Positions 8,049-36,520 of a stretch of 38,224 nucleotides of DNA are shown one piece after another. Position 1 is the stretch's first letter. Every line of letters starts with the position of its first letter. Made by a program: the position numbers and the translations under genes. The notes under the pieces were generated by a model. The model saw nothing but the letters and a program-made list of their open reading frames with translations, was not told the origin of the DNA and made no database searches. The stretch is from Clostridia bacterium (GTDB taxonomy: Bacteria > Bacillota > DSM-521 > Neomoorellales > SLTJ01), in contig SLTJ01000030.1 of assembly GCA_004347685.1 (NCBI GenBank), forward strand, positions 27,600-65,823, given 5' to 3'.

Positions 8049-8909
8049 TCATTCCCGGTGTATGATCTGCGCCGGCTCCCCTTCCACGCTTGCAGCTTGC
8101 CGACCGGGTGTCCGGGCATGAAATATCGTTTGCCCCATGCCCATGGTTGACTTATATCCACTGCCGCAGTAGTAAGCGAAACGGGCGAGGGTACGCAGAG
8201 CCGCCGCCTCCGGCCCCTCCAGTCCGAGTATGCGAAAATGAACCCGGCCTACAAAGCCGATCTGCATGGCTTTCGGCAGGTAAAAAACCCTCGTCTCGAG
8301 GTGGTGCCGAGAGATCACCAGCCCTGCTTCCACATAGTCCAGCAGGCCCTCGGGAAATGGCTGCCCGCTGTAATCGTTCCACCGCTTAAGGTAACCAGTG
8401 AAGAGGATTTGGGGATCCGGCAGCGGCAGGTTTCGGGATTTGCGCCGCAGGGTAGTGGGAGAAATGAACTCGAGGCTAAACTCAGTTTCCCGCCCGCGCC
8501 GGCCCTCTTCCACCAACTGCTCGTAGGACGTGTAGTCGCACAGCAGGCCATGGCTCGAGTCGGTAAGCACCCGCAGCAGGTGAACTTCGGCCCGGCCAAG
8601 GCGAAGGGTCCGCAGGTCGGCATCCAGAAAGCTGGTCACCAGCGATTCCTCTACCTGAGGGGCAAAGACGGTAAACCGTACCCGGTAGTCAACGCCAGGC
8701 GATAATGTGATGTCACGGCCGCCTTCGTAGCCCAGTATCGAAGATACGGTAAAGGGCTTGCTCACCGCCGGGCCGTGCAGGTCACCGGCCAGTTTCGGGT
8801 CTACCCGGCTGATAAGTTCGAGAAATATGGCGTGAAAATGCTCCCCGGGAGCAACGTCCAACCTGACCGGTCTCGCGGGGGTAAACTCCAAGAGACAACT
8901 CCACGGCAT
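8049..8909 (-). CDS. cas6: Cas6 endoribonuclease, pre-crRNA processing
   Basis: The product is 286 residues, the usual size for Cas6. It should cut within the repeat of the array transcript and leave an 8-nt 5' tag on each crRNA. The N-terminal part has GEHFHAIFL with H24 and H26; one is a candidate catalytic histidine, by analogy to the N-terminal histidine of other Cas6 proteins. The C-terminal glycine-rich loop that marks the family is clear at about residues 248-261 (CGSGYKSTMGMGQT). The ATG at 8909 is 95 nt beyond the end of the CARF-HEPN gene, the largest gap inside the operon, and its ribosome-binding site is weak. It is the only cas6 in the window and the last gene of the operon, next to array 1, so it probably serves both the I-D and III-B complexes. 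Confidence 0.9.
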   Translation of the reverse strand: MPWSCLLEFTPARPVRLDVAPGEHFHAIFLELISRVDPKLAGDLHGPAVSKPFTVSSILGYEGGRDITLSPGVDYRVRFTVFAPQVEESLVTSFLDADLRTLRLGRAEVHLLRVLTDSSHGLLCDYTSYEQLVEEGRRGRETEFSLEFISPTTLRRKSRNLPLPDPQILFTGYLKRWNDYSGQPFPEGLLDYVEAGLVISRHHLETRVFYLPKAMQIGFVGRVHFRILGLEGPEAAALRTLARFAYYCGSGYKSTMGMGQTIFHARTPGRQAASVEGEPAQIIHRE

Positions 8910-9004
8910 TTACAACCCACTCCCCATCCTTCGAAGACGTATCGGCGCATCCCGCCCGTCGTGTCTGGCGGTAATGTAACGGCGCGGAGATACGTAGCTG
9001 CCAT

Positions 9005-10267: not shown

Positions 10268-10271
10268 CCGA

Positions 10272-11432: not shown

Positions 11433-11856
11433 CCGCGTCGCCTCCCGTCCGCTCCGGCCTTTTCAGGTACGCTACGGCCAGTTTTTTCAGCCACTGGAGC
11501 CAGGCCAAGGCTTCGGCCTGGGCCCGAAGATACAGATACCTGTCCCCGTTTACCACGGCTTCAAGCAGGTCACCTGCTGGGTAAACGGCGCCAGATTCGT
11601 TCCGGCAGAGCCAGCCCTGAAGGTGGCGGTACAGCGCAAGATGAGGGTCTTTCGCATCTCCCCGAGCCGCGGCCAGCAACATGGCGCAAGCCTGGCCAAG
11701 TCCGCACGTGAGAATGGTAGCCGGCAGGCTTTCAACGTAGGACGCATACCGGTCATTCCACTCTGAACGATCCTGGCGGTCACCCGAGCCCTGACGCAAC
11801 TTAGCTACCACGTCCAGGGCGTTAGCGGCCCTGGTTTGGTCGAGAGTTCTGGTCAC
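11407..11856 (-). CDS. cmr5: Cmr5, type III-B small subunit
   Basis: A small, mainly helical protein of 149 residues, matching the size and position of Cmr5, which forms the inner filament (Cas11-like) of the Cmr complex. It begins TRTLDQTRAANAL after the initiator, a typical Cmr5 start. I chose the GTG at 11856 because it forms a GTGA overlap with the cmr4 stop and has a run of G 9 nt upstream. The same reading frame stays open upstream to 11898, but that extension lies inside cmr4 and looks spurious. No enzymatic role is expected. Confidence 0.88.
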   Translation of the reverse strand: MTRTLDQTRAANALDVVAKLRQGSGDRQDRSEWNDRYASYVESLPATILTCGLGQACAMLLAAARGDAKDPHLALYRHLQGWLCRNESGAVYPAGDLLEAVVNGDRYLYLRAQAEALAWLQWLKKLAVAYLKRPERTGGDAGDSAALQG

Positions 11857-12680
11857 CGCCACTTCCCCCCGTCTCCGTACCACGCCACCGCACACCAACC
11901 CTGGCCGACCGTTTCATTTCCGCCCACCTGGAGATACGGGCGGCGCGCAAAAAGCTCCCGTACCTCATCCAGCATACCTTCCCCGCCCGGGCGGGCCACC
12001 AGCAGCGCGTACAGCAGCGTGTCAGGAGGTATAGTTTCTTCGTACCACAGGTTTTCGCTGGTCTTGGTATCGTCATTTAAGACATTCCGAGCACTAACTT
12101 GCAGGGCGTACCTGGCAAAGTACGCGAAGTCGTCGTCGGGACACACGAGGAGCTGCTCGCCCAGCCGGCTCCTTACTGAGTGGTGTGGTATCATGGAACT
12201 GACGGTCGCTACCACCACTGACAAATCAGCCACGGCCACCGTGAAAGAAACTTCCTCCAGGTACAGGGTACCTGGAGCCCCGGCCATCACGTGCCCGGGT
12301 GAAGGGGCGGTAAGGGAACCCGAGAAAGGCAGCCCCGCCAGCATGCCGTCTCTCTGCAGGCGCTCAAGAACGTATGCGCAGGTTGCCCATTTGAAATGCC
12401 CGGTCAGGGAGCGAACTGGTAATAGTAGCAGCCGGGCGTCGGTCACCGCCAGTCCCCCGGCAGAATCCGGGGCTCCAAAAATCGCCTCAACCTTCGGATC
12501 TTTGTTACCCCACTCCTCTTCCGCCCGCTCCCGCAGGGCCCCCTTGAGACTGGACCCGGGGATTACCGGGTAGCCGGTAACCACTTCCCTGGCCACCGGC
12601 AGGTCTATCACTCCTGATGTTGCCCCCGCTCCAGGATGCAGGCTGGTTTCGGCCAAAAGGCCAATTAACGCTGCTTTCAT
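11853..12680 (-). CDS. cmr4: Cmr4, backbone RNase subunit of type III-B
   Basis: A 275-residue Cas7-type RAMP. Several copies form the backbone of the Cmr complex and cut bound target RNA at about 6-nt intervals. D26, in GVIDLPVARE, aligns with the catalytic aspartate known from Pyrococcus Cmr4, so slicing should be active. The segment VIPGSSLKGALRE (39-51) is the RAMP glycine/serine loop. The ATG at 12680 is preceded by GGAGGAG and overlaps the cmr3 stop as ATGA. The longer open frame to 12746 lies in cmr3 and is not needed. Confidence 0.92.
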   Translation of the reverse strand: MKAALIGLLAETSLHPGAGATSGVIDLPVAREVVTGYPVIPGSSLKGALRERAEEEWGNKDPKVEAIFGAPDSAGGLAVTDARLLLLPVRSLTGHFKWATCAYVLERLQRDGMLAGLPFSGSLTAPSPGHVMAGAPGTLYLEEVSFTVAVADLSVVVATVSSMIPHHSVRSRLGEQLLVCPDDDFAYFARYALQVSARNVLNDDTKTSENLWYEETIPPDTLLYALLVARPGGEGMLDEVRELFARRPYLQVGGNETVGQGWCAVAWYGDGGKWR

Positions 12681-13777
12681 GTTTTCTCCTCCCATCTCCC
12701 GATCAGAACTTGCCCCAGCCCCCAGGCCTGCCCGTCGCCAAGGCATTTGCCGTGCAGAACCTGAACCTCTGCGGCCCTGGAGCCTTCCGTCTCAAAGAAC
12801 CAGGTACTGCCAGCGGGGATCAGCGGCCGTAGAGGGCGCGGAGCGTGGCTTTTCAGGTCCCAGCCGCCTGATTGCTGCATCCGGCCCGTACAAGCGGCCA
12901 CACAGCGTCCGGGAACTTCAGGCGGACCGTTCCTGACCGCGGATGCCACGTCAGGGAAGCTGCCGGAGGTGATCAAGGTAACCGTAAACCGGATCTTGTC
13001 ACCGTCCCGGTGGACAGCCGGTAACTCAGGAAGATCGAGCCCCTGCTCCGCAATCCTTATCCGGGCCAGCCGGCCTTCACCGCCGAGCGGAATTACCGCC
13101 GGGACCCCGTCGTACCACTCGTCCGTCAGACCCGAAACTTCTACCTGGAGGCTGACACCCTGACACAGGCGGGTGAAGGTGGCCGAGTAAAGTTTGTGTT
13201 CCACCGCCGTACGCCGGCGGCGATCCCGCTCGATCCCCACCCGAGGTTCCTCGCGCCAGAGCGCGGAAGCCTGAAAAACCTGACCGTCACCAGGCAACCC
13301 GCCTGCCAGTACCTCTGCCATCCCCTGCCCGGACAACCAGGCACCCTGCAGCTCCGTTGCTCCCGCTGCGTTTTCAGTCGGTTCCGGAAGGCGCACCAGC
13401 CCCAGATCGCATTCAACGGCCGGACCCGGTACCAGTCTGATGTAATGGTATCGTTTGTCCCCGGCATCCTTTCGGCACAGGATGTTCAACGGGGCCGGGA
13501 GAAGAATCTCGCCTTCACTGAACAAATAGGGCCCCCGCAGTACTACCCGGCCCGGGTCATCCGGACCGCCCAATTCACCGGGCCACATGTCCGGCCGCTC
13601 CGGCCGCCAACCCCGTCCGTAGGCCAGCGCGGTGCGAACGGCTCCCTGCAATGTGGACATAAAGGGGGGAAAGAAACCCCCGGCACCGGTCCAGCCACCT
13701 TCACCGGCATTGTAAGGGCTGGCGTCCCTGAAGAAAAAGACGTCCAGGGGGGCGAATTCCCATAATCTCGCCGTCAC
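12677..13777 (-). CDS. cmr3: Cmr3, type III-B crRNA-tag-binding RAMP
   Basis: A 366-residue Cas5-like RAMP that holds the crRNA 5' tag and pairs with Cmr2. The N-terminus (TARLWEFAPLDVFFF, then RDASPYNAG) has the Cmr3 hallmark pattern of an aromatic strand followed by an RD.PF/Y loop. The GTG at 13777 forms a GTGA overlap with the cmr2 stop and has GGGGGTGG upstream. The longer open frame reaching 13885 lies inside cmr2 and is rejected. Confidence 0.88.
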   Translation of the reverse strand: MTARLWEFAPLDVFFFRDASPYNAGEGGWTGAGGFFPPFMSTLQGAVRTALAYGRGWRPERPDMWPGELGGPDDPGRVVLRGPYLFSEGEILLPAPLNILCRKDAGDKRYHYIRLVPGPAVECDLGLVRLPEPTENAAGATELQGAWLSGQGMAEVLAGGLPGDGQVFQASALWREEPRVGIERDRRRRTAVEHKLYSATFTRLCQGVSLQVEVSGLTDEWYDGVPAVIPLGGEGRLARIRIAEQGLDLPELPAVHRDGDKIRFTVTLITSGSFPDVASAVRNGPPEVPGRCVAACTGRMQQSGGWDLKSHAPRPLRPLIPAGSTWFFETEGSRAAEVQVLHGKCLGDGQAWGLGQVLIGRWEEKT

Positions 13778-15669
13778 ACAGCCACCCCCTTGGTGGCGAT
13801 AAACCTGACCAGCAGGGCTCCGTCCAAAGCCAAAGGCCCTTCCGCCTCGTGGACCCCGCCACCGGCATCCCGCCACGAACGACAACAGACCCGCAGCAAT
13901 TGCCTGATGAGGTTCTCCACCTCGTCCACACCTGACCGAGCGCCGCGGTCCGGGCCGTGCTCCCGCGCCCTGAGGTATTCGGCAGCCAACAGGCGAACCA
14001 GGTCCTCCATCGCAAAGGTCGGGGCAGCCTCTTTCCCGGATGCGACAAAACGCTGGTGCAGATTGTAGAGAAAGCTGCCGCTCAACCCGCCCGCGTCACC
14101 CGTCTTGCCCCGGACCTCTTGCGCCAGTTCGGTGATGAGGTCCCGGTGCCCGTCAAGCAACACTCTCCAGGGCGCCGCCCAGGTGAGCACCGGTCCTCCG
14201 GTTTTCCACACAGTCACCGCCAGGCTGTCACGCCCTGTCTCCTCCTTCGCCACCTTTTCGAGCAGCCGGTGAGCCTCGCTTACGATAGCACTGAGCGGCG
14301 CGTGGTAATGGGCGTACACGATGGCCGCCGAGACGGTGGCCATGTCGGCGGGGACGTCGCTTCCCGCGAAGGCGTCCCGGTAGGCACAGCGCGATGCGAT
14401 GGCTGCCGGCAAAGCGTCTTCCAGCGGCAGCATGGCCAGCAGGTCGTCGCCACCCGCGTAAATGGTAAAGCCGTTGTGACCGCCCACCAGCGCGGCGGCC
14501 CGCCCGGAGAAGCGTTTCAAGGCCTCACTTATCTTGACGCCACCAAACTGACGCAGGTTGGCCCCCAGCCTGTCCCCGTCCATGAGCAGCAAAGCGTAAA
14601 AAGGAGCCGGCTCTTCCTCAAGATTTTGCTTCAACATCCGGCCCACCATTTCCCTGGCCTCACGCGAGCCTTCTTCCCACAGGGAATCGTTAGCCAGCGA
14701 GGAAGTGAAGAAACACCTGCCATCCAGCCAGGCCAGTTTCGCCGCCCCTGGCTCGCGCTCCATGGCCTGGCGCAGGCAGGAGAAGTCCTCACCTCGACCC
14801 GGAACGGCCCCAGGCAGGAGCGAGGCTGCCGCACCAGCAAACTCGCCGGCCAGGGCGGGCCTCTCTACCATCATCCTCTCCACCCAGTGCACCGCGGCCA
14901 TGTACGTCGTGGAAGGGTAGCCAGTGGTCCTCACCTTCCAGCCGATGGCTTCTTCCGCCACCAGCGGGAAAAGGCGCTTGATCAGGGCCACGGCGGACAG
15001 CCTTTCGTCCGGCCTGATGTCTAGATCGGGAACGGAGCGGCTCAGCGCCCGCCAGAAATCCTCCTGTCCAGCCCGATCCCGGGAACGAACAAATCCGGAA
15101 AGTTCTTGGAGATTCCCCATGATCACGCATTTGTCACCGGGTTCTACCGCGGGCACGTGGCTGCGCCAGTTCTTGCGCCGGTCAAGAAGGTCCTCGCCCG
15201 GCCCTACCACCCAGTTTACCTCCCAGAAACCCTTTACCTGGCGCTCCCAGATGGCCGGAGTTCCCAGCCCGTAGCCGCTGACCGGGGCCACAAAGCGCTC
15301 CCAGACGCTGGCCGCGATTTTCTCCCAGGAGGCCTGTACCGCTTGGACGCAGCTCTCCGGGTCAAAGCCGGCGGGGATTTCCGCCTTGAACCGGTTGGGC
15401 AGCGTGCCGATCCGCGGACCGGACGACACCTTGTCCCCGGCATTAGCAGCGCAAATCGCCTGCAACAACTCGTCGGAAATATCGCCGCTCGAAGATTGGA
15501 CGGCGGGAAAAACAATCTTGCCCTTGGGGCCCAGGGCAGCTCTCATGGCCTGCCCGGCCAGGTAAGAAAGCAAGAATGAACCCGCCCACAGGTCTCGGGT
15601 GCGCCGGGCCCGGGCCACGAAAGCCTGCACCGGGCCAAGAGAAAAGTGCAACACCCTGGTATCCGGCAC
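13774..15669 (-). CDS. cmr2: Cmr2 (Cas10) without HD domain, GGDD cyclase motif intact
   Basis: The large subunit of the Cmr complex, 631 residues. The conserved block after the start, with SLGPVQAFVARARRTRDLWA, normally follows an N-terminal HD nuclease of about 200 residues in Cmr2; here it comes directly after the initiator. The start is fixed by cmr1, which ends at the same base, so no HD region is encoded. The palm motif GGDD is intact at 406-409 (codons at 14443-14454), in YAGGDDLL. The protein should therefore synthesise cyclic oligoadenylate but not cut ssDNA itself. This fits the CARF-HEPN effector encoded four genes later. Confidence 0.93.
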   Translation of the reverse strand: MPDTRVLHFSLGPVQAFVARARRTRDLWAGSFLLSYLAGQAMRAALGPKGKIVFPAVQSSSGDISDELLQAICAANAGDKVSSGPRIGTLPNRFKAEIPAGFDPESCVQAVQASWEKIAASVWERFVAPVSGYGLGTPAIWERQVKGFWEVNWVVGPGEDLLDRRKNWRSHVPAVEPGDKCVIMGNLQELSGFVRSRDRAGQEDFWRALSRSVPDLDIRPDERLSAVALIKRLFPLVAEEAIGWKVRTTGYPSTTYMAAVHWVERMMVERPALAGEFAGAAASLLPGAVPGRGEDFSCLRQAMEREPGAAKLAWLDGRCFFTSSLANDSLWEEGSREAREMVGRMLKQNLEEEPAPFYALLLMDGDRLGANLRQFGGVKISEALKRFSGRAAALVGGHNGFTIYAGGDDLLAMLPLEDALPAAIASRCAYRDAFAGSDVPADMATVSAAIVYAHYHAPLSAIVSEAHRLLEKVAKEETGRDSLAVTVWKTGGPVLTWAAPWRVLLDGHRDLITELAQEVRGKTGDAGGLSGSFLYNLHQRFVASGKEAAPTFAMEDLVRLLAAEYLRAREHGPDRGARSGVDEVENLIRQLLRVCCRSWRDAGGGVHEAEGPLALDGALLVRFIATKGVAV

Positions 15670-16823
15670 TAAATCCTCACCTCCACCCGGCTGTCGAAGC
15701 GATCAATAAAGCGGTGCAAGACGCCAAAATCAACCTGACAGGGCACGGAAATACCGCGGCCGCCCTTGGGTTTCATGAGTATGTTCTCGCCAGCCGGGAC
15801 AAACCGGGCCGGCAACAACGACAGCACGGCCACGTATTCGCCGGCCAATGGATGCATGTGGATAAACAGGGGGCTGGCCCGGCGCTCAACAGTCTCGCCT
15901 GTTACCTCTACGTCCCGGGCACCTGGCGTGGAGAAATGATAGTTATGAGGCAGGCCGAAGACGACCCGCTCGGGATGTCTTTTCTCGCTTCCTCCCGTGG
16001 CCACGGCCCGCACCAGGTCGTGGTCAGGGCTGAAATTCTGTTCCGCCTCCGCTCTCCAGGGCAAGATGTGGCGGCCGCTCCGGTTATCCCGGTGCCCGTA
16101 ACTCCGGTAGCCCATCATTTCCCGGCCCAGGTCGTCCAGCACGGCAAGGGGGTCTTGCTGGCCGAAGGACACTATGGCTATCCGGCTTTGCGCGCTCAAT
16201 GCTGTGTACTCCGGCGGGCCGGCCGGTAAGGCTGTGTCACCCCAGATTTTCTCAATATAATTTCTCAACTCGTCCACCGTGGCCGGATCGGTCCGCCGCT
16301 CCGCCCCGTCGAGTTCCACCGCCTGCAGGGCGACGGAACCGAAACCACGGCGTGAGCGGGAGCCGAGGCCGCCTAGCAGACCGAGGGCCCGGATTGCCCT
16401 CACCAGGTGATCGCCCAGGACCGTATCTACTCCCGGGCGCAGCGTAATAAACACGTTGAAAATCGTGCCGGGTCTGATATACGGCCGCGCGCTCTGCGCG
16501 TTCTGGCCCGGCGTGATCGGGCCGTACCCCAAGTACGCGCTACCGGGCCATGGCCAGCGACTCCCCGCCGGCTCGGTCTCAAGCCGGCCAGCAGCCTCCA
16601 CCCGGAGGGTAAACCTGGCCTGCCCACAACGTGTACTACCAAACCATTCCTGCTCTTCCTCCATGACCTTTTCCCATGTCTTCAGCCGGCCGAGGGCAAT
16701 GGCCCGGTACCAAAACCGCAGCGCCCCTTTGACCGACGCGGCCCGCAGTTCAGCGGTACCTGCGTCGGCACCGGCCATGAACAACGGGGTAACAACACGA
16801 AAGGTGGCTTTGATGCTCTTCAT
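15669..16823 (-). CDS. cmr1: Cmr1, type III-B RAMP subunit
   Basis: A 384-residue RAMP protein that sits at the target-recognition end of the Cmr complex. The N-terminus is typical Cmr1: IKATFRVVTPLFMAGAD, followed by RAASVKGALRFWYRA, the signature loop, at about residues 28-42. A second RAMP-like glycine-rich segment, GLGSRSRRGFGSV, lies near the middle. The ATG at 16823 has GGAGGG 10 nt upstream. It follows the cas3 stop after 37 nt with no terminator visible, so the III-B genes appear to continue the I-D operon. Confidence 0.92.
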   Translation of the reverse strand: MKSIKATFRVVTPLFMAGADAGTAELRAASVKGALRFWYRAIALGRLKTWEKVMEEEQEWFGSTRCGQARFTLRVEAAGRLETEPAGSRWPWPGSAYLGYGPITPGQNAQSARPYIRPGTIFNVFITLRPGVDTVLGDHLVRAIRALGLLGGLGSRSRRGFGSVALQAVELDGAERRTDPATVDELRNYIEKIWGDTALPAGPPEYTALSAQSRIAIVSFGQQDPLAVLDDLGREMMGYRSYGHRDNRSGRHILPWRAEAEQNFSPDHDLVRAVATGGSEKRHPERVVFGLPHNYHFSTPGARDVEVTGETVERRASPLFIHMHPLAGEYVAVLSLLPARFVPAGENILMKPKGGRGISVPCQVDFGVLHRFIDRFDSRVEVRI

Positions 16824-16860: not shown

Positions 16861-19221
16861 TTAGATTATCACCGGCAGTTCTTTGTCCGCGTCTGCCCGC
16901 AAGGCCCGGAAAATCGCCGGCCGGATCTCCGGGTAGAGAAGATAGGCGGCCGTGCCCACCACAGCCCAGTATTCCACCTCTTTCCCGGCATCGGGAAAGG
17001 TCACGCCCACCTTTACCGGCGCGATGCCGGCGCCGCGACACGCGGACAGCAAAGCGCCAACCGCGGCGTCAGGTACGACCAGGGCCACCACGTACTGGTC
17101 CTGTAGGAACCTGGAAACTTCAGCGGGCAGAGGGTGCACCGCCCCCCCGCGCGCCGATCGGCCCCGTATCCCCAGCCCCCGCAGGGCTACCGGCCGCGTG
17201 GCGTATTTCTCCATGAAAAAGGAACGGGTGACCTCCTGGGGACATTCGTAGCGATAGTATAATTGGAGGGGCTCCTCCCGGAATTTCACTACCTCCACGT
17301 AGAAATCGGCCGGCGGCGGCGTTTCACCGGCGCAGCGGTGGAATTCCTCGGCCCCGGGAAAGAACCGCAGATCATAGTACCGGAGCAGGTGCAGAAGGCC
17401 GTATACCGCGCCGGCGGTGTCGGTAAAAATCCCTTTGGGGTCATATACGGCGGCCACCGGGCCCTCCAGGCACTCCCTGAACGAGAAAATGGCCTTCTTG
17501 GCGGCATACTGGCCGCGGACGAAGTCCAAGACCTGGCGGCGGTACATCGGGTGCCGCAGGCATTCCGCCCCTTCGGCTGGACCAGCCGACTTGCCTGACC
17601 ACCAAAAGAGGAAATCATGGGCATCCCGGGTGGTCAGCGCTGCCTCTGCCCGGCGGAAAACTTCCTCCTGGTGGGCGTAGCCACGCATAGCCCTGATCAT
17701 GGAGCCGAAGCTGCGCCAGCTTGCCCCGGCAAAGACCTCCTTGACCCGGTCAAAGACGCTTTGGATATAAGGCCGGTCCTCCAGGGCGGTCATCCCGTGC
17801 AACTGGTAGATGGGCCAGAAGGTTTCCAGGTAAAAGGCCTCTGAACCGAGGTAGTGGACCAGGTCCCGGCGGGGCGGAGGAGCGGCGAGTTCCGCGCTCA
17901 GTTGCTTCAGGGCGCTGCGGGCATACGTCCCCCCCTCCCCCACCCGGTCCCGCCAGGTGACGACCACATCTTCGGGAACCAGGGCCCAGATATGGCTGGG
18001 GAAATCGCACCGCGCCTTACCCAGCACCCGGCCCGCCCGGCCCAGGCGCTGCCAGAACTCGTCGTGATTGAAAGCCTCAAAGACCAGGAAGTCCAGCCCC
18101 TGGCGGTCTTTTTGTTTCTTGGCGAAGTTAAAGCCAATATCCACCGTCGGCGTAGCCCAGATAAGCTGTCGCGCGGCTGCCTCATGCCTGTTATCGGACG
18201 ATTCCGGCCCGGTAATCCGGCCGGCGTCCGGCCAGGGGACGGCCTGCCGGGCCCGGTTCAAGCGGTGCAAAGAACTGGCAATCACCGCCCCGTCTTGACC
18301 CTGTTCCAGCAGCGGCCATGTTCTTTCCCGCAGCCACTGCGCCTGCTCGGCTACATCCCCTCCCACCAGGTGCAAAACCGCGGGGGCCAGGACAGGTGCC
18401 GCTCCCGGGGTCCCCGGCTCGGCCTCCACCTCCGGCGGGCGCACCTCGCCGACGTGTATTTTCAGCCGGGCCAGGAAATCCCGCATGTAGGGAGCCGGCG
18501 TCGCCGAAAGCAGGCATACCTTCCGCCCGGCGGCGAAATGACCCAGGTCCTCACACAGGAGCAAGAAAAAGAGGAAGTTGGCGAACTGCTTCGGGGCGTA
18601 GTAGTGGAACTCGTCTATCACTATGTAGGCGAAGCGGGAGACGAAATCCAAAAACAGGTTTCGCCGGTCAAAGGCGTTATACCGATAATAGAGGGCGTAA
18701 TAGAAAATATCCGGGTTAACCACCACGATGCCCGGCCGGGAGGTGTCGGCGTCAATCAGCATATCCCCGATGCCCGACTGGCCGGCAAACTGGCGCGGGT
18801 CGGCGAGCAGCTCGTGGAGCTTTTCTCCCGCCCGGCCCGGGCCGGCCCCGGCCTCGAGATGGCGAAGCCCTTCCGCCGTGACTTCAAGGACGTTAAAGGG
18901 TAGCTTCCTTGCCGTGACAAAATCGCGGATGTCCCGGGCATGCTGCGCCAATAGCTCGTTTACCGGCGCGACGAACAGTACGTCTTTTCGCCGCCCGGTT
19001 TCCTCGTATTCGCGGGCCAGGTCCTGCAAGTAGAGCAGGGCGGCGACGGTTTTGCCCATACCAGTATCCCACGTATTGAAGACCAGGTCGTGCTCGCGTA
19101 GCGCCTGCCAGGTCTCCACCTGGTGCTGCAGCAAACCCGACAAAGAATCATTGTCCCCAAGATAGACGGGAGCCGCCACCGGCAGGAGATTAACGGTTAA
19201 CTCCACTTGCAACCCCCTCAT
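16861..19221 (-). CDS. cas3: Cas3 helicase, type I-D (no HD domain)
   Basis: A 786-residue superfamily 2 helicase that unwinds target DNA for the I-D complex. From the chosen start the motifs are Walker A TGMGKT (53-58), DEFH box (203-206, in YIVIDEFHYY), SAT (239-241) and motif VI QRLGRAGR (391-398). No HD nuclease is fused at either end; in type I-D it sits in Cas10d. The C-terminal ~350 residues have no motif I recognise. I chose the ATG at 19221 because it overlaps the csc1 stop as ATGA with GGAAGGA just upstream. The frame is open to 19254, which would add 11 residues inside csc1. Confidence 0.92.
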   Translation of the reverse strand: MRGLQVELTVNLLPVAAPVYLGDNDSLSGLLQHQVETWQALREHDLVFNTWDTGMGKTVAALLYLQDLAREYEETGRRKDVLFVAPVNELLAQHARDIRDFVTARKLPFNVLEVTAEGLRHLEAGAGPGRAGEKLHELLADPRQFAGQSGIGDMLIDADTSRPGIVVVNPDIFYYALYYRYNAFDRRNLFLDFVSRFAYIVIDEFHYYAPKQFANFLFFLLLCEDLGHFAAGRKVCLLSATPAPYMRDFLARLKIHVGEVRPPEVEAEPGTPGAAPVLAPAVLHLVGGDVAEQAQWLRERTWPLLEQGQDGAVIASSLHRLNRARQAVPWPDAGRITGPESSDNRHEAAARQLIWATPTVDIGFNFAKKQKDRQGLDFLVFEAFNHDEFWQRLGRAGRVLGKARCDFPSHIWALVPEDVVVTWRDRVGEGGTYARSALKQLSAELAAPPPRRDLVHYLGSEAFYLETFWPIYQLHGMTALEDRPYIQSVFDRVKEVFAGASWRSFGSMIRAMRGYAHQEEVFRRAEAALTTRDAHDFLFWWSGKSAGPAEGAECLRHPMYRRQVLDFVRGQYAAKKAIFSFRECLEGPVAAVYDPKGIFTDTAGAVYGLLHLLRYYDLRFFPGAEEFHRCAGETPPPADFYVEVVKFREEPLQLYYRYECPQEVTRSFFMEKYATRPVALRGLGIRGRSARGGAVHPLPAEVSRFLQDQYVVALVVPDAAVGALLSACRGAGIAPVKVGVTFPDAGKEVEYWAVVGTAAYLLYPEIRPAIFRALRADADKELPVII

Positions 19222-19943
19222 TCCTTCCCTGGCAGGGCAAACCGCATAGGCCACGGCAAGAACTCGCCCGTTTCCCTGACGCGCAGGCCCGGACCGGTCA
19301 ACCTGGCGTTCTTTACCAGGACCGCCGGGCGGATGTGGACGATATCACACGCTCCCAAAGTCACATTCTCCGGGAAATCCAGAGGGGAGAGCACCCGGGC
19401 CACCTTTTCCGGGCTAGCTGCGGCCGGCTCCCATGTAATTTCCCGCCACTGGACCCTGGCCTTGCTGTTGAATTTCCCCAGACGGACGTACCCCGGCCTG
19501 GAGATTTCCTCACCCCGGGCCGGAAGCATCACGTAGAAGGTGAACATGCTCCCCACGGCCAGCATTTTCAGCCGCCCGTGCTGGGGATAGTTCACCGCCC
19601 TGGCTTCCTGCGCCTGGCTTACGGCCACGGCGTTGGGGCGAAACTGAAACCAGTAAGAATCAGAGTTGGCGTTAAAAGACTGAATGGCAAAGGCCGGCCG
19701 TCCGGCCGGAGTAGCCGGGGTAACGTATATCCCCCGCTGGTTCAATTGCTCGAGGTCACGGGCATAGAGCGGCGCCGGCGGCTGGTGGTATGGGCTCCGG
19801 CAGAACCCCAGGGCGTAGGCCAGGGCCACGTTCCCGATCACCGGCTCCGTCTCGTAGTAGTCGAATATCTCCCGGCTGGCAAAAAAGGTGTTCTCGTGTA
19901 GTTGCAGTCGCGCCAGATAGCAGCGGACTTCCACTTCCATCAC
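19218..19943 (-). CDS. csc1: Csc1 (Cas5d-type), type I-D complex subunit
   Basis: A 241-residue Cas5-like protein that caps the 5' end of the crRNA in the I-D complex. It is recognised by the opening EVRCYLARLQLHENTFF, then SREIFDYYETEP and a conserved GNVALAYALGFC segment, as in Csc1 proteins, and by its place between csc2 and cas3. It starts at GTG 19943, overlapping the csc2 stop as GTGA; an ATG one codon later is equally possible. It overlaps cas3 at the other end, so csc2-csc1-cas3 should be translationally coupled. Confidence 0.88.
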   Translation of the reverse strand: MMEVEVRCYLARLQLHENTFFASREIFDYYETEPVIGNVALAYALGFCRSPYHQPPAPLYARDLEQLNQRGIYVTPATPAGRPAFAIQSFNANSDSYWFQFRPNAVAVSQAQEARAVNYPQHGRLKMLAVGSMFTFYVMLPARGEEISRPGYVRLGKFNSKARVQWREITWEPAAASPEKVARVLSPLDFPENVTLGACDIVHIRPAVLVKNARLTGPGLRVRETGEFLPWPMRFALPGKE

Positions 19944-20926
19944 CCCCGGTCCGGGTACTTGCCTTCAAGCTGCCGCAGCAGAGCCTGGAGGCCCTCCTCC
20001 TGCCGGTACAACTGCCTGACCTCCGCTACGAGCTGATCCAACTCCTCCGGTGGCATTTCCTGCACCCGGCCGCAGGCCTGACCGGCCAGCCTGGCGGCCG
20101 TCTCCCGCACCGGCGGTACCAAGTCCTGGGTCAGCAGAGGCAGTTCCGGCTCCTCCGGGAGTAAACCCGCCACCTCCTCCGTCAGCTCGAGATTGCTGTA
20201 GAGCTCGCAGGTGCTGAAGGTAATGCCGATAATGTGATTGGTCACGCGCCCCACCCGAGACGATACCGCCCCGTAACGGGTACTGCGCAGGAGGTTTCCA
20301 AGGACATACACCAGTTCCTCGGCCATAACGTCCTTGAGTACTTGCACGTCCAGGAAGTGAGAGTGAGGCTTTACATATTCGTTTTCGCTCAAGGCCCGGG
20401 AAGGTTCTTTGTTAATCGGGTCCCGCATAGTGCCGTCGTCATAGGTGGCGTTGAAAGTGCGCTCTTCGGCAATGTCGCCGGCGGGCAGCAATGAATACGC
20501 GTCCTGGGTGATTACCCTCGAGCGCTGGGCGCCACCGCCTCCCACAGCGTAGCCGTAAAGCATGCAATCAATACATTTCTCACAGGGGTTGTTGCGGTTG
20601 AGGGCACAGATGTTATCTTCTCCCCCTTTTTGGTTGGCGCTGTACAGCATGTCAAAGCGCCGTAAGAGCTCCCTCCCCGTCCGCCGCTCCACGGCCACCT
20701 GCTTGCGCTTGGTTATCACCACCCGCGGCACGGGTTCGCCGCCGGCGGTGAGGCGCACAAACTCCTTGTTCAGGCCCGGGCCGGCTGCCCCCTCGGTGCG
20801 AAAAATGGTTTCTGACAGGGTCTCGCGGATCATCAAAATGTTCACGTAGTTGCCTCGGGGAAAGTTCTGATACTGCGGCGCCAGGAAGTCCTGGTAGGGC
20901 TCCAGGCTCCGGATAACCATGCTCAT
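19940..20926 (-). CDS. csc2: Csc2 (Cas7d), type I-D backbone subunit
   Basis: A 328-residue Cas7-family RAMP that coats the crRNA and forms the I-D backbone. Features typical of Csc2 are the opening SLEPYQDFLAPQYQNFPRG, a cysteine cluster CEKCIDCMLYGYA and the following GGGAQRSRVITQDAYSLLP block. The cluster has three cysteines close together and may bind a metal. The ATG at 20926 is preceded by GGAGGA and follows the cas10d stop directly. The C-terminal ~60 residues are acidic and helical. Confidence 0.92.
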   Translation of the reverse strand: MSMVIRSLEPYQDFLAPQYQNFPRGNYVNILMIRETLSETIFRTEGAAGPGLNKEFVRLTAGGEPVPRVVITKRKQVAVERRTGRELLRRFDMLYSANQKGGEDNICALNRNNPCEKCIDCMLYGYAVGGGGAQRSRVITQDAYSLLPAGDIAEERTFNATYDDGTMRDPINKEPSRALSENEYVKPHSHFLDVQVLKDVMAEELVYVLGNLLRSTRYGAVSSRVGRVTNHIIGITFSTCELYSNLELTEEVAGLLPEEPELPLLTQDLVPPVRETAARLAGQACGRVQEMPPEELDQLVAEVRQLYRQEEGLQALLRQLEGKYPDRG

Positions 20927-20928
20927 CT

Positions 20929-23694
20929 CTAATCCTCCTCCAAGTTCACCTGGTTTTTCCCGGCCCGGCCGCCGGCCATGGCTTCACGTACGTAGAACAG
21001 GTAAGCCGCGGTCAATGTCTTCTGGTCGGCCAGCAGGTTGGTCACCTTCCCGTCGTAGCAGCCATCGAGCAGTTCACTGCGAAAGACTTCCACATAGTCC
21101 TTTACCTGCTCCCGTTTACGCATGCCGGGACGGTACTGCTCCTCGGCGATACGCTCCAGGTGGGCGTAGATTTCTTCCACGGCCGCGGCGAACAGGGTAT
21201 CCAGATTCAGGTAGCGGCTCTTTTTCTCCAGCATGCCCAGCATCATGTTCCACGGTTTGAGCAGGGAATTGCGTTCCAGGGAACCGCCCCGGATATGGGC
21301 TTTCCACGCTAATTCCCCCAGTTTGGCGATTGCCTCCACGATCTTCTTTTCCCTCCCATCCGTGATAAGTGGCTCTACATACCCGAGCGCCACCTGGGAC
21401 TTACGGATAACCGCCCCCTCGCGCTCCTGGCCCCGGTTGCGCTCGAGCTCCCGGTCACAGACCACGAACAGGCCCAGCGGGTCCCTGCCGGCCTGGCGCA
21501 GAAGGGCCGCGTTCACCCCCTGCCGCTCCACCGGCGCCGCGACCTCGGCGGCCACGGCATAAAGCGCCCGCAGCATATCCCACAGGGCATCGCTGTCCTC
21601 CCGCGGGAGATCGGGCCGGTGCACCAGCCCGGCCAGGTTTTCCGGCAAGTAATCGAGATAGGTATGGGTAAATTCCTCTCCTCCCAGGGGCGGTACCGGT
21701 GACCTGGAAATGATCCCCCGCAGACCGAAGCTGCGCTCAAAAAGGAGGAGGTTTTGCAGGGCAAAGGCGTACTTCTCCGTATCGTTGTCACCTACACAGT
21801 TAACCGGCAGGGTGATGACATTGCCGACGACCTCGGAGTACCTGGCCACGGGGATGCCGTTGCCCCTGGTGCCGCTGAAAGGGAGCGCCCGGGCTTCCCC
21901 CCGCACCTCAGCCAGGATGGCCCGGTCGGTCTTCAGCAGTACCGCTGTCACGTCCTCCCCCCGCAGCCGCTCCAGGCCCTTTTTGAAACTGTCCAGGAAC
22001 AGGGCCGTATAGAAAGGTAGAGGATAAAAGTGCAGGTAAACCGTCTCATCGTCCGGCCTGGCGACAAAGTTGATCTTTTGCAGGATAAACTGGGTGTTAC
22101 AGACGTGACAGATGTTGCGCTTTGGCTCGCGGGCCCCGCCGGCCAGGCGGTTGGAGAAAAACTGCACTTTAAGGTTGCTCGGCACCTCACCAGCCATCCA
22201 CGGGCTCACTCCCTGCTCCGACCCGCAGGTGGAACACTGGACATGGGGCCGGGCGGCATAGTAGCTGAACTCGGCCCGGTAGCCCTCCAGGGAGACGGCC
22301 GAACCCCCCTCTATCTGCAACACCCGTTGCACATAGGTTTCCACGAGTTCGTCACTTCCGGGCGTTACCCCCAAGCTGTTCATAAAGCGCTCCCCGGCCT
22401 GCTCCACCAGCGGGCGCAAGTCGTCGTACCTTATACCCTTGGCCACCAGGTAGCGCCCCAGGGCCAGGTGACGGTTGTACAAGGCGTCAAAGGCCTCCAG
22501 ATCCCCGCGAACCCCTTCTTCCACCCCCAGCATGTCGTAAACTTCCTGCCAGGCCGCGCCGGCGCTGTAGTTCCCGTGCTCGCGGAGGAACTTGTAGTAG
22601 GTGCGCAAGAGTTCGCCTACGTGCAGTTCCTCGGCGGTAAAAGAGGACGCCCCGACCCGCGCCAAGAGTTCCTCGGCCCCGGGGGTGAGGCGCTGATTCT
22701 TCTTGCGAACCTTGGCCAGGACCTCCAGGTGGTCGTCTGGCCTGGGCTTCTTGGCCTTGATCCTCTTTTCCACCTCGACCAGCAAGCTGGCGAAAGGAAC
22801 GCCCTGCTCCAGACACTTGGCGTTGATCTTGATGCCGTCGCCGCGCGACTGGATAAAATCCGCGAAGTTGACGTTGACCATGCCGCCGATGCGCCGGGCC
22901 ACGGCCCCAGCCACCCGGAAGTAGACATCGGTGCCGGGCGACACCTCGGCCCGGCCCGCCAGGTAATACGTGCCTTCCGGGTAGAGGAAGACAGGCACCC
23001 AGCCAAAATTATCCCGCACGTAGTCCGTCACTTCGTTATGGATTATGTTGGACAGAATGCCCCGCTGCTCGGTCAGGCGGTGATAGGTGAGGCGAGCCGG
23101 TCGAGACAGGCTCTTGTTGAGGTGGCGCAAGAAGGCTTGCTTGTGGTTCTCTTCGGCGAAACTGCGCGACAGGTCGGCCACATCGGTGGCCCGGATCAGG
23201 TTGAGCATGTGGTCGCGGCGGTCCGGGGACAGGCGGTAGCGCCCGGCCGCCCTGGCGATAACCGCCTCCCCGGCTATATGCTGGTGGCCGCTATGTCCGT
23301 GGATCAGGTAGGCGATATCGGCCAGGTAGTCGGCGTATTCCGGAAAAACCTCGGGAATCCTCACCCGCTCCAGTTCCGCTTTGATATTCTCGGTCGTGGC
23401 TATTTGGCTAAAACTAAGGCCCTGGTACCGGGGCAACTTATTCAGGTCGTGGACGCTGAACGCGCTTATGGCCACCTGCCTTTCCACCGGGGGCAAGCCG
23501 GCCAGCCCCGCCAGATTCTCCAGCAACTCGCACCCGTGTACCACATGGTCGTACAGGGTAGTACCCGCCCGCTCGCCAGTTTGGTAGATCAACTGGTAGG
23601 GCAACAATCCCCCCAGGGCACACTTTCGCACGAACTCCCCGTAAAACACCTGCTCCTCAGGTATGGCGATCAGACCAAAATCCTCCAGAGGCAT
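20929..23694 (-). CDS. cas10d: Cas10d (Csc3), type I-D large subunit with HD nuclease
   Basis: The 921-residue large subunit of the I-D complex. It has an N-terminal HD nuclease: H50 and H53 in LYDHVVHG, H82-D83 in SVHDLNKL, then the histidine-rich HGHSGHQH. A zinc-finger-like set follows at C487-X2-C490 and C529-X2-C532. I see no GGDD motif, as expected for Cas10d, so it should not make cyclic oligoadenylate. In known I-D systems this subunit recognises the PAM and its HD cuts DNA while the separate Cas3 unwinds it. The start ATG at 23694 has GGGAGGTG 5 nt upstream; the open frame to 23715 adds seven unlikely residues. It is the first gene of the effector operon. Confidence 0.93.
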   Translation of the reverse strand: MPLEDFGLIAIPEEQVFYGEFVRKCALGGLLPYQLIYQTGERAGTTLYDHVVHGCELLENLAGLAGLPPVERQVAISAFSVHDLNKLPRYQGLSFSQIATTENIKAELERVRIPEVFPEYADYLADIAYLIHGHSGHQHIAGEAVIARAAGRYRLSPDRRDHMLNLIRATDVADLSRSFAEENHKQAFLRHLNKSLSRPARLTYHRLTEQRGILSNIIHNEVTDYVRDNFGWVPVFLYPEGTYYLAGRAEVSPGTDVYFRVAGAVARRIGGMVNVNFADFIQSRGDGIKINAKCLEQGVPFASLLVEVEKRIKAKKPRPDDHLEVLAKVRKKNQRLTPGAEELLARVGASSFTAEELHVGELLRTYYKFLREHGNYSAGAAWQEVYDMLGVEEGVRGDLEAFDALYNRHLALGRYLVAKGIRYDDLRPLVEQAGERFMNSLGVTPGSDELVETYVQRVLQIEGGSAVSLEGYRAEFSYYAARPHVQCSTCGSEQGVSPWMAGEVPSNLKVQFFSNRLAGGAREPKRNICHVCNTQFILQKINFVARPDDETVYLHFYPLPFYTALFLDSFKKGLERLRGEDVTAVLLKTDRAILAEVRGEARALPFSGTRGNGIPVARYSEVVGNVITLPVNCVGDNDTEKYAFALQNLLLFERSFGLRGIISRSPVPPLGGEEFTHTYLDYLPENLAGLVHRPDLPREDSDALWDMLRALYAVAAEVAAPVERQGVNAALLRQAGRDPLGLFVVCDRELERNRGQEREGAVIRKSQVALGYVEPLITDGREKKIVEAIAKLGELAWKAHIRGGSLERNSLLKPWNMMLGMLEKKSRYLNLDTLFAAAVEEIYAHLERIAEEQYRPGMRKREQVKDYVEVFRSELLDGCYDGKVTNLLADQKTLTAAYLFYVREAMAGGRAGKNQVNLEED

Positions 23695-23715: not shown

Positions 23716-23891
23716 TATTTACCGCCATTAGCTGCACCCATATCTCCGCGTCCGGCCCGCGCTGCGCCTCCCCCAGTTCGCTTGTCCTCCCCTCTCGGTC
23801 TCACCGCGGCTCGGAAACGCCTACCTGACCACAGCGTGGTTTCACTAAAGATCATACTATCGCAACCCTTTGACAACTGTCTGTCACCGGG
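23716..23891 (-). promoter_or_regulatory. Promoter/5' leader of the I-D/III-B operon with operator-like inverted repeat
   Basis: On the minus strand the element GGTGACAGACAGTTGTCAAA spans 23869-23888 and contains TGACA-N6-TGTCA (23871-23886). A near-identical element stands upstream of the WYL regulator (27224-27243), 18 of 20 bases the same. The next bases are also alike (GTTG, then TA and GTAT), which suggests two related promoters. A -10-like TATGAT and -35-like TTGTCA are visible, but their 14-nt spacing is too short to be sure. A 5-bp hairpin (ACCAC-AGC-GTGGT, 23828-23840) falls in the presumed 5' UTR. Confidence 0.65.
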
Positions 23892-24164
23892 TCACACGAA
23901 AATAAGATTTTCATCCAGGGGCCGGACCCCGCCGATTCGCTCCACCTTCTGCTGGCAGTCCTGGCAGAGGAAATAGAAACGGATGCTGTCCTCTTTGGAA
24001 TCAATGTTCTTCTGCAGCCGCTGCTTCAGGCGCAGGAAATCCCTGGCCTCCAAGCTGCACTCGAAAACACTGTACTGCACCCACTGGCCGAAGTCCTTGA
24101 GGACCTTGTGTATTCTGGTACGCCGCTTGTCATCCGGAATATCGTAGGAGATCACGATAAACAT
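23892..24164 (-). CDS. cas2: Cas2, adaptation subunit (I-D module)
   Basis: A 90-residue ferredoxin-fold protein. With Cas1 it forms the integrase that adds new spacers. It begins FIVISYDIPDDKRR, with the conserved aspartate at the end of strand 1, and continues with GQWVQYSVFEC, the usual Cas2 second strand. The C-terminal half carries a CQDC pair. The ATG at 24164 has GGGAAG 11 nt upstream. It is separated from cas1 by 187 nt, unusual for a cas1-cas2 pair, and its stop lies 6 nt from the operator-like repeat of the next operon. Confidence 0.93.
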   Translation of the reverse strand: MFIVISYDIPDDKRRTRIHKVLKDFGQWVQYSVFECSLEARDFLRLKQRLQKNIDSKEDSIRFYFLCQDCQQKVERIGGVRPLDENLIFV

Positions 24165-24351: not shown

Positions 24352-25347
24352 TTACCGGCTGGTAAAAGGCTGGTAAGCGGGGATCTCCCCCATCAGGTAC
24401 TTGGCCACCAGGCGCACCTGCAGATGCAGGCAGCGCCGCAGGGTGGCGCTGTATTCAAAATACGGGTGGTTGACTTCCGTGCGCAGGCGGGCCTCGTACT
24501 GCTCGAGGAACTTCCGCGTCCCGGCCTTTCTTAGCTCGTAAGTGCCGTATACCTCCTGCAGGTCGTCGGGCTGCAGGACGCCCTTGTTTATCACCGACTT
24601 GACCACCGAATCGACGACGATAGGCCGGAACTCCTCCATGAGGTCCAGGGCCAGCGCCGGCTTGGAATACTTGGCGGCGTGAAGGTAGCCGATGTAGGGG
24701 TCAAATCCCGCCAGGCTGACGGCGCTCATCACTTCGTTAAAAAGAAGCGTGTAACCGAAACTGAGCAGAGCGTTGACCGGGTCCCGCGGCGGGCGGCGAC
24801 TGCGGCCGTTAAAGTACCAGCCTTCTTTCAGCTCCCGGCCGAAAACGCTGAAATAGGCTTTTGAGCCCACGCCCTCGTACCCGCGCACGGTGTCCACTTC
24901 GGCCGCGACGGCGGTCTTGTCAATGTAGATCTTTACATTCCTGATCGCTTCCTCGCTGGCAGCGTCGCGCTCGCCACGCGTTGCGCGGAGCATGAGCGCG
25001 CGCATGTTGGTGAGTTTGCCCTGGACAAACCACCGGGCCAGTTCCAGGGTCTGCCGGCCGTCCTCGGCGGCCCGGTACTGGGCCCGGCGCAGGAGTGAGT
25101 TCTTGCTAAAAGGGGGCGTCAGGGCGCCCCGGTAGCGGCCGCTGTACGTCAGAAATCCAACTGGGATGTCAGCCGCCAGCAAGAGATCAATGGCCGGCGG
25201 GGTAAGGGAGACATTGCCCAGGACCACCACTTGGTCCACTTTGACCAGGGGGATATCGGCCAGTACCTGCGAACCCCTGCGCACCACCAGCCTTTCCCCG
25301 GTCTTGCTCAACTGGGTGTCGTCTTCAGTTATATACACCACCGCCAT
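24352..25347 (-). CDS. cas1: Cas1 integrase (I-D module)
   Basis: A 331-residue Cas1. The metal-binding triad is present: E158 in RGYEGVGSKAYF, H223 in GYLHAAKYSK and D235 in ALALDLMEEFRP. The N-terminal beta domain and the helical C-terminal domain have full length. It differs strongly from the second Cas1 at 36521, so the two are not recent duplicates. The ATG at 25347 has GAGAG upstream. A 135-nt gap separates it from cas4; I see nothing else coded there. With cas4 and cas2 it forms the spacer-acquisition module presumed to serve array 1. Confidence 0.95.
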   Translation of the reverse strand: MAVVYITEDDTQLSKTGERLVVRRGSQVLADIPLVKVDQVVVLGNVSLTPPAIDLLLAADIPVGFLTYSGRYRGALTPPFSKNSLLRRAQYRAAEDGRQTLELARWFVQGKLTNMRALMLRATRGERDAASEEAIRNVKIYIDKTAVAAEVDTVRGYEGVGSKAYFSVFGRELKEGWYFNGRSRRPPRDPVNALLSFGYTLLFNEVMSAVSLAGFDPYIGYLHAAKYSKPALALDLMEEFRPIVVDSVVKSVINKGVLQPDDLQEVYGTYELRKAGTRKFLEQYEARLRTEVNHPYFEYSATLRRCLHLQVRLVAKYLMGEIPAYQPFTSR

Positions 25348-25482: not shown

Positions 25483-26076
25483 CTACGGTCCGGCCCGCAG
25501 GATGGCCGTTTCCCGGGGCAGGCAAAACGAAAGTACGCTGCAAGGGTCACACCTGCCCTTACGGTAAGCGGGTACCGGTACCGGCGCACCCTCGTAAAGC
25601 GCCCGGAGATCCCGACAGGCTTTCTCGGTGGCCGCCATCAGTTCCGGGGTGAACTTCACTTCGCGCCGGCGGCGCGAACCCATGTACCATACATAACCCC
25701 GGGAGATCTCGCGGCCCAACTGCTCCGCCAGGCACAGGCCCTGGGCGCACACCTGCACCTGGTCGTTAAGCCATCTCCCTTGCCGGCCCTTTTTATACTC
25801 CACCGGATAGATTTCCGCGGCCCGCTCCTCGACCACGTCAATTTGCCCCACCAGGCCCAAAGCTTCCGACTTCACGAACACCCGGGTCGTCTGGAAACTG
25901 TCATCTACCACCCGCTCTTTCTCGCTGTGCACCGTCTCGTGCTCAATCTCGCCTTCAATGGTAAAGACATTATCTTCCCATTCCCCGAGGACATATTCCA
26001 CATACGCCCGGTAGGGACAGTAGAGGTAGGCGTTGAGAGCCGAAAGGGGTATGTACAGATCATAACCCTCATCCAT
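25483..26076 (-). CDS. cas4: Cas4 nuclease, PAM-end trimming (I-D module)
   Basis: A RecB-type exonuclease with an Fe-S cluster that trims prespacers and helps select PAM-adjacent DNA for Cas1-Cas2. From the chosen start it is 197 residues: C20 in LYCPYRAY, then D80 and E93-X-K95 of the nuclease site (GQIDVV, PVEYKKG), and the C-terminal cluster C176-X2-C179-X5-C185. All four cluster cysteines are intact. The start is uncertain: the ATG at 26076 has only a distant GGGAG, while a TTG at 26127 in the same frame adds 17 residues. It follows the WYL regulator by at most 70 nt. Confidence 0.9.
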   Translation of the reverse strand: MDEGYDLYIPLSALNAYLYCPYRAYVEYVLGEWEDNVFTIEGEIEHETVHSEKERVVDDSFQTTRVFVKSEALGLVGQIDVVEERAAEIYPVEYKKGRQGRWLNDQVQVCAQGLCLAEQLGREISRGYVWYMGSRRRREVKFTPELMAATEKACRDLRALYEGAPVPVPAYRKGRCDPCSVLSFCLPRETAILRAGP

Positions 26077-26146
26077 AATATTGCTAGTTTCGCCACTCCC
26101 TGCCAAAATTCCTGCCCGAACAGACAAAATTTGCGTGCGCTTATGT

Positions 26147-27139
26147 TCATTTACCCGCCGACTCAGCCCCGCCTTCCCCGGCCCCGGCTTCTACATACAT
26201 CTGCACCATGGCCTGCGCCACCGTCAGGGCCTCCCGGCGCAGCCAGTCCGGCTCCAGGATCTCCACGCTGGCGCCATAAGACAAGAGCCAGAAGAAAACT
26301 TCTTTCCACCCGTTGACCTTTAGCCGGTAAAGTACGGACCCGTCCTGGTCCTGAACCTTTTCTTCGTGCCGGTGGAAGGTGGCTTCTAGGATAAGCTGGG
26401 ATACCTCAGGTCTAAAGCGGGCGACAATGGTTACTGGTTCACCGCCAGGCATGAGCTCGAAGCCCTGGCCGAGGAATTCTTCCAGATCAAAGTCCTCCGG
26501 TAGATCGAAGTACTCAACCGTGTGCTCCATGGCTTCGATTCTGGCCAGACGGAAAAGGAGAATCTTGTTGTTCTTATGGTCCAGCCCTGCTAGGTACCAG
26601 GCCCGCCGGCGGAAAAAGAGGGCATACGGGTCAACTGTCCGCCAGGATGTAGCCTGGGAACTGAAGGAAAAATACTTTATCCGCACCCGCCGGTGTTCCT
26701 CCACCGCCGGTCGCAGACGGACAAGCATCTCCTGAGCCCGCGGACTGTCAGGAGGCATGGCCGGGAAAAGCCGCACCTCGCGCGCCACTTCCTGGCAGGC
26801 CTCTTGCAGTTCCTCGGGGATAACCCCGGCAATTCGCTGCAGCGCCTCCTCGAGGGGCCGGCGCAGGGCTTCGTGATTGGCTAAGGCCGTGGCCGCAATA
26901 TATAGGGCCGTGGCCTGGCTATAGTCCAGGAAGACAGGGGGTAACGCCCCGTGGTTCATGAAGCGGATGCCGCTTGAGGTTTCCACCGGCATCCCGGCCT
27001 CCCCCAAGGCATCAACATCGCGGCGGATGGTACGCTCGTGCACCCCCAGTCCGCGGGCAAAGTAGGCATAGGATTGGCCTGGGTGCCGGGCAATGGCGTC
27101 GGCCAGGCGCACCAGGCGCAAAAGGCGGTCGTAGCGCAC
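26147..27139 (-). CDS. WYL-domain transcriptional regulator
   Basis: A 330-residue regulator. It has an N-terminal winged helix-turn-helix (about 1-60; FARGLGVHERTIRRDVDAL is the recognition region), a central WYL domain with the motif W181-Y182-L183, and a C-terminal WCX-like part. WYL proteins are commonly linked to CRISPR loci, where they bind nucleic acid or nucleotide ligands and usually repress. Start GTG at 27139 with GGGAGGGG upstream. It is the first gene of the WYL-cas4-cas1-cas2 operon. The inverted repeat 87 nt upstream (27226-27241) recurs before the effector operon, so I infer that it controls itself, adaptation and interference together. Confidence 0.88.
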   Translation of the reverse strand: MRYDRLLRLVRLADAIARHPGQSYAYFARGLGVHERTIRRDVDALGEAGMPVETSSGIRFMNHGALPPVFLDYSQATALYIAATALANHEALRRPLEEALQRIAGVIPEELQEACQEVAREVRLFPAMPPDSPRAQEMLVRLRPAVEEHRRVRIKYFSFSSQATSWRTVDPYALFFRRRAWYLAGLDHKNNKILLFRLARIEAMEHTVEYFDLPEDFDLEEFLGQGFELMPGGEPVTIVARFRPEVSQLILEATFHRHEEKVQDQDGSVLYRLKVNGWKEVFFWLLSYGASVEILEPDWLRREALTVAQAMVQMYVEAGAGEGGAESAGK

Positions 27140-27297
27140 GCAAACTCCCCTCCCTTTACATTCTCATACACAAGCCTTTCCTTTGTGGCGGCGGCTACGT
27201 TCGCCGATACTGTACCACAACTGTTTGACACCTGTTTGTCACCAGGCGGGCGAAATCTTTACGGCGGCCTGTACCGCTGACCGGAAATATGAGTGGC
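27140..27297 (-). promoter_or_regulatory. Promoter/operator of the WYL-cas4-cas1-cas2 operon
   Basis: On the minus strand GGTGACAAACAGGTGTCAAA spans 27224-27243 and contains TGACA-N6-TGTCA (27226-27241). It is followed by CAGTTGTGGTACAGTAT, which resembles the sequence after the matching element at 23869-23888. I read it as the operator of the WYL regulator overlapping its own promoter. The exact -35 and -10 are not resolved. Confidence 0.65.
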
Positions 27298-36492: not shown

Positions 36493-36520
36493 CCCTATTC
36501 CCCCAACCTTTACCGCACTG

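Follow-up and report, generated by a model that had tools for sequence, protein, structure and literature searches.

The type I-D locus and its operons

The window, that is the whole stretch of 38,224 nucleotides analysed here, carries a type I-D CRISPR-Cas system (Cas10d, Csc2, Csc1, Cas3', Cas1d, Cas2 and Cas4), in which cas10d, csc2, csc1, cas3' and cas1d all score above the cut-off of their models (TIGR03174, TIGR03157, TIGR03159, TIGR03158 and TIGR04093). A type III-B Cmr module, a CARF-HEPN protein and Cas6 are encoded 3' of the I-D genes on the same strand, and CRISPR arrays flank this combined I-D and III-B gene block on both sides (Table 1). Cmr2/Cas10, the CARF-HEPN protein and Cas6 were identified by models, and cmr1 and cmr3-6 were named from gene order and sequence together with tblastn to a second I-D plus III-B locus. 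From cas10d (23694) to cas6 (8049), all effector genes share one orientation. The gap between cas3' and the III-B module is 38 bp and, judged by gene spacing alone, the module is probably part of the same transcription unit as the I-D effector genes. The adaptation operon has the order WYL-cas4-cas1-cas2, with the gene of a WYL-domain regulator in first position.

The stretch 27436-27918 (minus strand), flanked by the WYL operon and the second array, encodes a lone C-terminal piece of RNase R (the end of the RNB domain plus S1); the gene looks truncated. A second adaptation module (cas4, a cas1b-type gene and cas2) is located at 36229-38163 on the minus strand, near the arrays at 28-35 kb; the composite promoter described below is absent from this module.

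Table 1. Genes and promoter elements of the window discussed in the text.
Feature	Position	Strand	Comment
cas10d (Csc3), first gene of the effector operon	20929..23694	-	ATG at 23694, preceded by GGGAGGTGAACGG; identified by models
csc2 (cas7d), csc1 (cas5d) and cas3' of type I-D	16861..20926	-	identified by models
Type III-B module: cmr1, cmr2/cas10, cmr3-6, CARF-HEPN (TIGR02710), cas6	8049..16823	-	
cas2	23892..24164	-	stops 4 bp before the effector-operon element begins
cas1d	24352..25347	-	
cas4	25483..26127	-	19 bp after the WYL gene
WYL regulator gene	26147..27139	-	HTH + WYL + WCX, 330 aa, GTG start; proposed to bind both sites
Palindrome TGACAGACAGTTGTCA, effector-operon promoter	23871..23886	-	putative WYL site
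-10 hexamer TAGTAT, effector-operon promoter	23854..23859	-	11 bp past the palindrome
Palindrome TGACAAACAGGTGTCA, WYL-adaptation promoter	27226..27241	-	putative WYL site
-10 hexamer TACAGT, WYL-adaptation promoter	27209..27214	-	11 bp past the palindrome; TGn in front

Two copies of a composite promoter

The 20-mers GGTGACAGACAGTTGTCAAA (23888-23869, effector side) and GGTGACAAACAGGTGTCAAA (27243-27224, WYL side), both on the minus strand, are identical at 18 of 20 positions and share the inverted repeat TGACA-N6-TGTCA, as had been noted, and no other exact match to this repeat occurs in the window. The copy at 27224-27243 was rightly placed before WYL-cas4-cas1-cas2, and the assignment of the other is corrected here, 23869-23888 being the site before the effector operon, 4 bp past the cas2 stop codon. 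The similarity does reach into the promoter (GTTGnGnTA is shared downstream), and what had been missed is a -10 hexamer at a fixed distance of 11 bp. The cas10d promoter reads TGACAGACAGTTGTCA-AAGGGTTGCGA-TAGTAT and that of the WYL gene TGACAAACAGGTGTCA-AACAGTTGTGG-TACAGT, both copies having the form TGACA-N6-TGTCA-N11-TAnnnT, in which TAnnnT is a pattern that begins at 0.95% of the window positions. The bare operator originally proposed is thus a real shared element, better described as a composite promoter made up of a palindrome plus a fixed -10.

Outside the promoter, no sequence is shared between the flanks of the two copies. A classical sigma-70 promoter was rejected, as a consensus scan found none at either site; the spacers from the TTGACA/TTGTCA sequences within the half-sites to the -10 would be 22 and 11 bp. 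An RNA element was likewise rejected, the window having no Rfam match.

The motif is not scattered over the 3.1 Mb genome. The only close copies of the 20-mer, at up to three mismatches, are the two CRISPR-operon sites, and one further match (C24:3478) has three mismatches and imperfect halves. A whole-genome search for the composite including the -10, at up to one mismatch, returned the two exact sites, their antisense reads and a single match with one mismatch (C46:7825), which was rejected as a third genomic site as it lies within a coding region on the other strand. A degenerate scan of the window allowing two mismatches in TGACA-N6-TGTCA stayed at chance level (12 found versus 9.4 expected) and was not used, so that only the exact form is informative.

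Distribution of the element in the phylum

In order to follow the element beyond the window, the pattern TGACA-N6-TGTCA-N11-TAnnnT, with a free centre, was searched in 299 genomes of the same phylum; a scan of contigs by WYL alignment had yielded 16 loci, and the survey was therefore based on this genome pattern search. It gave 72 unique exact composites after reads from both strands were merged and one genome with an interspersed repeat (G134) was removed. Thirteen of these are linked to cas genes and nine more to WYL genes (within about 1.5 kb), and two further composites lie 2.3 kb from a WYL gene. The reversed pattern, used as a control, occurred at 14 places versus 57 for the real composite in the same 185 genomes, about four times fewer, and within 1.5 kb of the 14 control loci there is neither a cas nor a WYL gene, compared to linkage in 22 of the 72 composites (Fisher p 0.01). 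About two thirds of the composites have no recognised cas or WYL neighbour; some of these are chance occurrences and others may stem from other regulons.

The cas-linked composites comprise, besides the two in the window, those before WYL-cas6 and before a separate cas3g operon in each of two genomes (G112 and G074), before cas3c and before cas3e in G114, before cas6b four times (twice in G252, once each in G180 and G202) and before the cas8b-cas7-cas5-cas3 operon of G078. The cas operons concerned belong to subtypes I-B, I-C, I-D, I-E and I-G, and one further composite precedes sspB of the Ssp defence system. The same box precedes, in G114 (L151, L152), the cas3c operon, the cas3e operon and five other genes, making up a candidate multi-system regulon. 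An AddB/GajB-like helicase-nuclease (UvrD plus PD-(D/E)XK, ~940 aa) is found directly under a composite at L166 (3536-6376) and L174 (3241-6054), in genomes that also have cas6b under a composite.

TAnnnT was built into the pattern of this larger survey, whereas the sites in the window and in L054/L055 were found without it. A search for TGACARACAGNTGTCA in 398 genomes gave 17 sites versus three for the reversed pattern, with TAnnnT at exactly 11 bp in ten and at 12 bp in four of the 17. Among them are a type I-D operon headed by a WYL gene (WYL-cas10d in G331; WYL protein 44% identical), the WYL-cas6 operon of G112, WYL-containing operons in G026 and G072 and the cas8b-cas7-cas5-cas3 operon of G078. 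Nearly all of the closest relatives of the window's WYL protein have a site, in G110 with one mismatch, and the composite is also present at three deltaproteobacterial WYL loci; at least twelve independent loci, these three contigs among them, have a site beside a WYL gene. In three of the loci of the closest relatives (L051, L052, L053) genes for small membrane proteins, one of them VanZ-like, separate the site from the WYL gene. A spacing of 12 bp is found at sites before a small zinc-ribbon gene adjoining a WYL gene (L058 8952, FCQSCGMPM; L059 6751, FCQSCAMPL), which is likely a non-CRISPR target family.

The conservation of the motif before WYL and cas genes elsewhere was thus borne out (G331, G112 and G074; five type I subtypes), but its restriction to I-D was not: the element is neither I-D-specific nor common to every I-D WYL regulator, the Synechocystis sll7009 locus being without it. 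An occurrence at all CRISPR-linked WYL genes was also rejected, as none was found in Synechocystis pSYSA, the I-E system of Thermus HB8 or Synechococcus elongatus, and most of the remoter WYL loci in the phylum have no such site. As in the window, a type I-D locus in G011 (L189) directly adjoins cmr genes of type III-B, but with neither a WYL gene nor a site; the pairing of I-D and III-B may be a recurrent one.

Promoter architecture

When 6 to 16 bp were allowed between palindrome and TAnnnT (11 spacings), the spacings of 11 and 12 bp were enriched, accounting for 46 of 132 among the matches listed, and for 29 of 52 among the matches listed whose hexamer resembles TATAAT. Most of the 28 cas- or WYL-linked sites have a strong -10 (at least 5/6 matches in 20 of them), and 16 of the 28 have G at -14. 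Over these sites, a -35 sought at 15 to 17 bp was no better than chance at any of the spacings, the mean match being 1.1/6 at a spacer of 16 and 0.9/6 at a spacer of 17. The sites accordingly have the layout known from WYL-activator promoters, namely no canonical -35 and a constant distance to the -10. Three N11 sites have a 4/6 -35 at 18 bp spacing, which makes a basal activity possible.

The WYL protein and its known relatives

Over its full length, the window's WYL protein is closest, among solved structures, to PafBC (6e-18) and DriD (2e-13). CapW matches with an E of 0.06 over residues 119-208 and BrxR was recovered by profile only, in the WYL domain only, and whole-length homology to the BrxR/CapW regulators is thus lacking. 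The recognition helix (R36-T-I-R-R40) holds an R-x3-R pair, R36/R40, at the spacing of the arginines R44/R48 in PafB and R38/R42 in SiwR, and together with the HTH-WYL-WCX architecture this agrees with a regulator of the activator type (PafBC, DriD, SiwR). The PADLOC Cas3c model PDLC01766 (1009 positions) matches the protein through its first 316 positions, which suggests that natural WYL-Cas3 fusions exist.

With ssDNA as its activator, PafBC acts through sigma adaptation at -26 (PMC11804915), and the consensus of PafBC-dependent promoters is tTGTCRgtg-8nt-TAnnnT (quoted in PMC5656591). The core of this (RecA-NDp) promoter, TGTCR-N11-TAnnnT, is identical in sequence and spacing to the window sites (TGTCA-N11-TAGTAT and TGTCA-N11-TACAGT), and neither has a -35. 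The two differ in that gtg follows TGTCR in the PafBC consensus while aag and aac do so in the window, and in that PafBC is a heterodimer with a non-palindromic motif, whereas the window has a full palindrome and a single WYL gene in the locus. The PafBC regulon is one of DNA repair in actinobacteria, as opposed to the CRISPR operons found here. DriD of Caulobacter, a homodimeric WYL activator, offers a likeness in its GAC...GTC (pseudo-)palindrome over a weak -35; its sites have their centre at a poor -35 and keep a constant distance to the -10, with a conserved G-14 (PMC12340889). Its consensus ATACGAC-N7-GTCGTAT (GAC-N7-GTC) differs from TGACA-N6-TGTCA (GAC-N8-GTC), as do its targets. SiwR likewise relies on a palindrome together with the -26 region (PMC10693628).

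BrxR and CapW, WYL regulators of phage defence, bind palindromes at the promoters that drive defence operons and the regulator gene itself, with two boxes for BrxR in one island. They are repressors, their box sequences are unrelated to the window element (BrxR arms of 10-11 bp, spaced by 5), their recognition-helix residues differ (SRQQ in BrxR) and the homology outside the WYL domain is weak. In Synechocystis the WYL gene sll7009 likewise adjoins a type I-D cas operon and alters CRISPR output. Sll7009, the one I-D WYL regulator that has been tested, is reported to be negative, its deletion having raised crRNA; its locus lacks the composite, and its HTH region is not alignable to the R-x3-R helix.

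A probable WYL-dependent promoter and its alternatives

The window elements are members of a promoter class over which a WYL-domain protein probably has control, and the shared element probably links acquisition, interference and the regulator. We regard as reasonably likely a WYL-dependent promoter that co-controls adaptation, the WYL gene itself and the long I-D plus III-B effector operon, the two sites being regulator-dependent sigma-A promoters activated by a homodimer. The 330 aa protein would bind TGACA-N6-TGTCA as a homodimer at about -39 to -24, replacing the normal -35 box, and the bound dimer would help RNA polymerase to use the -10 hexamer 11 bp downstream, as with PafBC and DriD. 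One promoter would thereby serve WYL-cas4-cas1-cas2 (self-control and spacer acquisition) and the other cas10d-csc2-csc1-cas3' and probably also the III-B, CARF-HEPN and cas6 genes. By analogy with PafBC, DriD and SiwR, the ligand of the WYL domain may be single-stranded DNA arising from damage or infection.

Activation is the more likely sign of control, since the -35 is missing, the -10 strong and a G at -14 common, since half-site and spacing equal the PafBC-dependent consensus in a layout resembling that of DriD and SiwR, and since the best full-length solved relatives, with the R-x3-R helix, are PafBC and DriD and not BrxR/CapW. In uninfected cells the same site might instead be occupied by the WYL protein as a repressor of the BrxR/CapW type; a ligand would then release the dimer and so free adaptation and interference together. 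The precedents of BrxR and CapW, with palindromes over their promoters (that of BrxR over the -35 region, where this repressor binds), the raised crRNA upon deletion of sll7009 and the site at the WYL gene's own promoter, which fits negative feedback, all agree with this reading. We nevertheless consider it unlikely, as the -35 is at or below chance in the 28 cas- or WYL-linked sites and derepression would leave a weak promoter, as a repressor has no need of an 11-12 bp spacing to the -10 fixed over many genera, and as BrxR and CapW are only remote relatives of the window's protein, with other recognition residues in BrxR.

It is much less probable that the palindrome is bound by another regulator encoded elsewhere, the WYL gene merely being a target. 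Most of the sites found phylum-wide have no WYL gene within 1.5 kb, and the two cas operons of G114 with a site have no adjoining WYL gene, but the many independent loci where WYL genes adjoin sites, the near-constant presence of a site with the nearest WYL relatives and the joint absence of both from the I-D locus of G011 argue against it. A chance similarity or duplicated repeat element is the least credible explanation and is largely refuted. Short palindromes are common, and in G134 (L186, L187) the interspersed repeat TGACACCATTTTGTCAAGTTATT, which probably is a mobile element end, mimics the palindrome. Against this stand the confinement of the copies in this genome to two cas promoters, flanks that share no sequence beyond the promoter, and the excess of the composite over its reversed control together with its linkage to cas and WYL genes.

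More tentatively, a WYL-activated class resembling sigma adaptation (TGACA-N6-TGTCA-N11/12-TAnnnT) may, Bacillota-wide, induce both CRISPR adaptation and interference in many subtypes of type I as well as other defence genes upon a signal of nucleic-acid damage.

Implications for CRISPR regulation

WYL-controlled defence promoters are already known, and the window element is one member of a class common to cas operons. In the literature searched, no prior description was found of the TGACA-N6-TGTCA motif, nor of an activation of cas operons by WYL proteins in Bacillota. A review of type I-D systems gives the regulator's control of expression and its signal as an open question (PMC10212523), for which a concrete promoter element and a predicted sign of control are offered here. 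One regulator family is linked to cas operons from five subtypes of type I (in the window with a III-B module downstream) and to an SspB-type operon. This suggests that adaptation and interference may be inducible together through a WYL promoter of the kind that governs the DNA-damage response in actinobacteria, and the element class may switch CRISPR immunity on in a cell under attack. If true, the class-wide reading would put CRISPR immunity under a command line that is induced by damage and independent of SOS.
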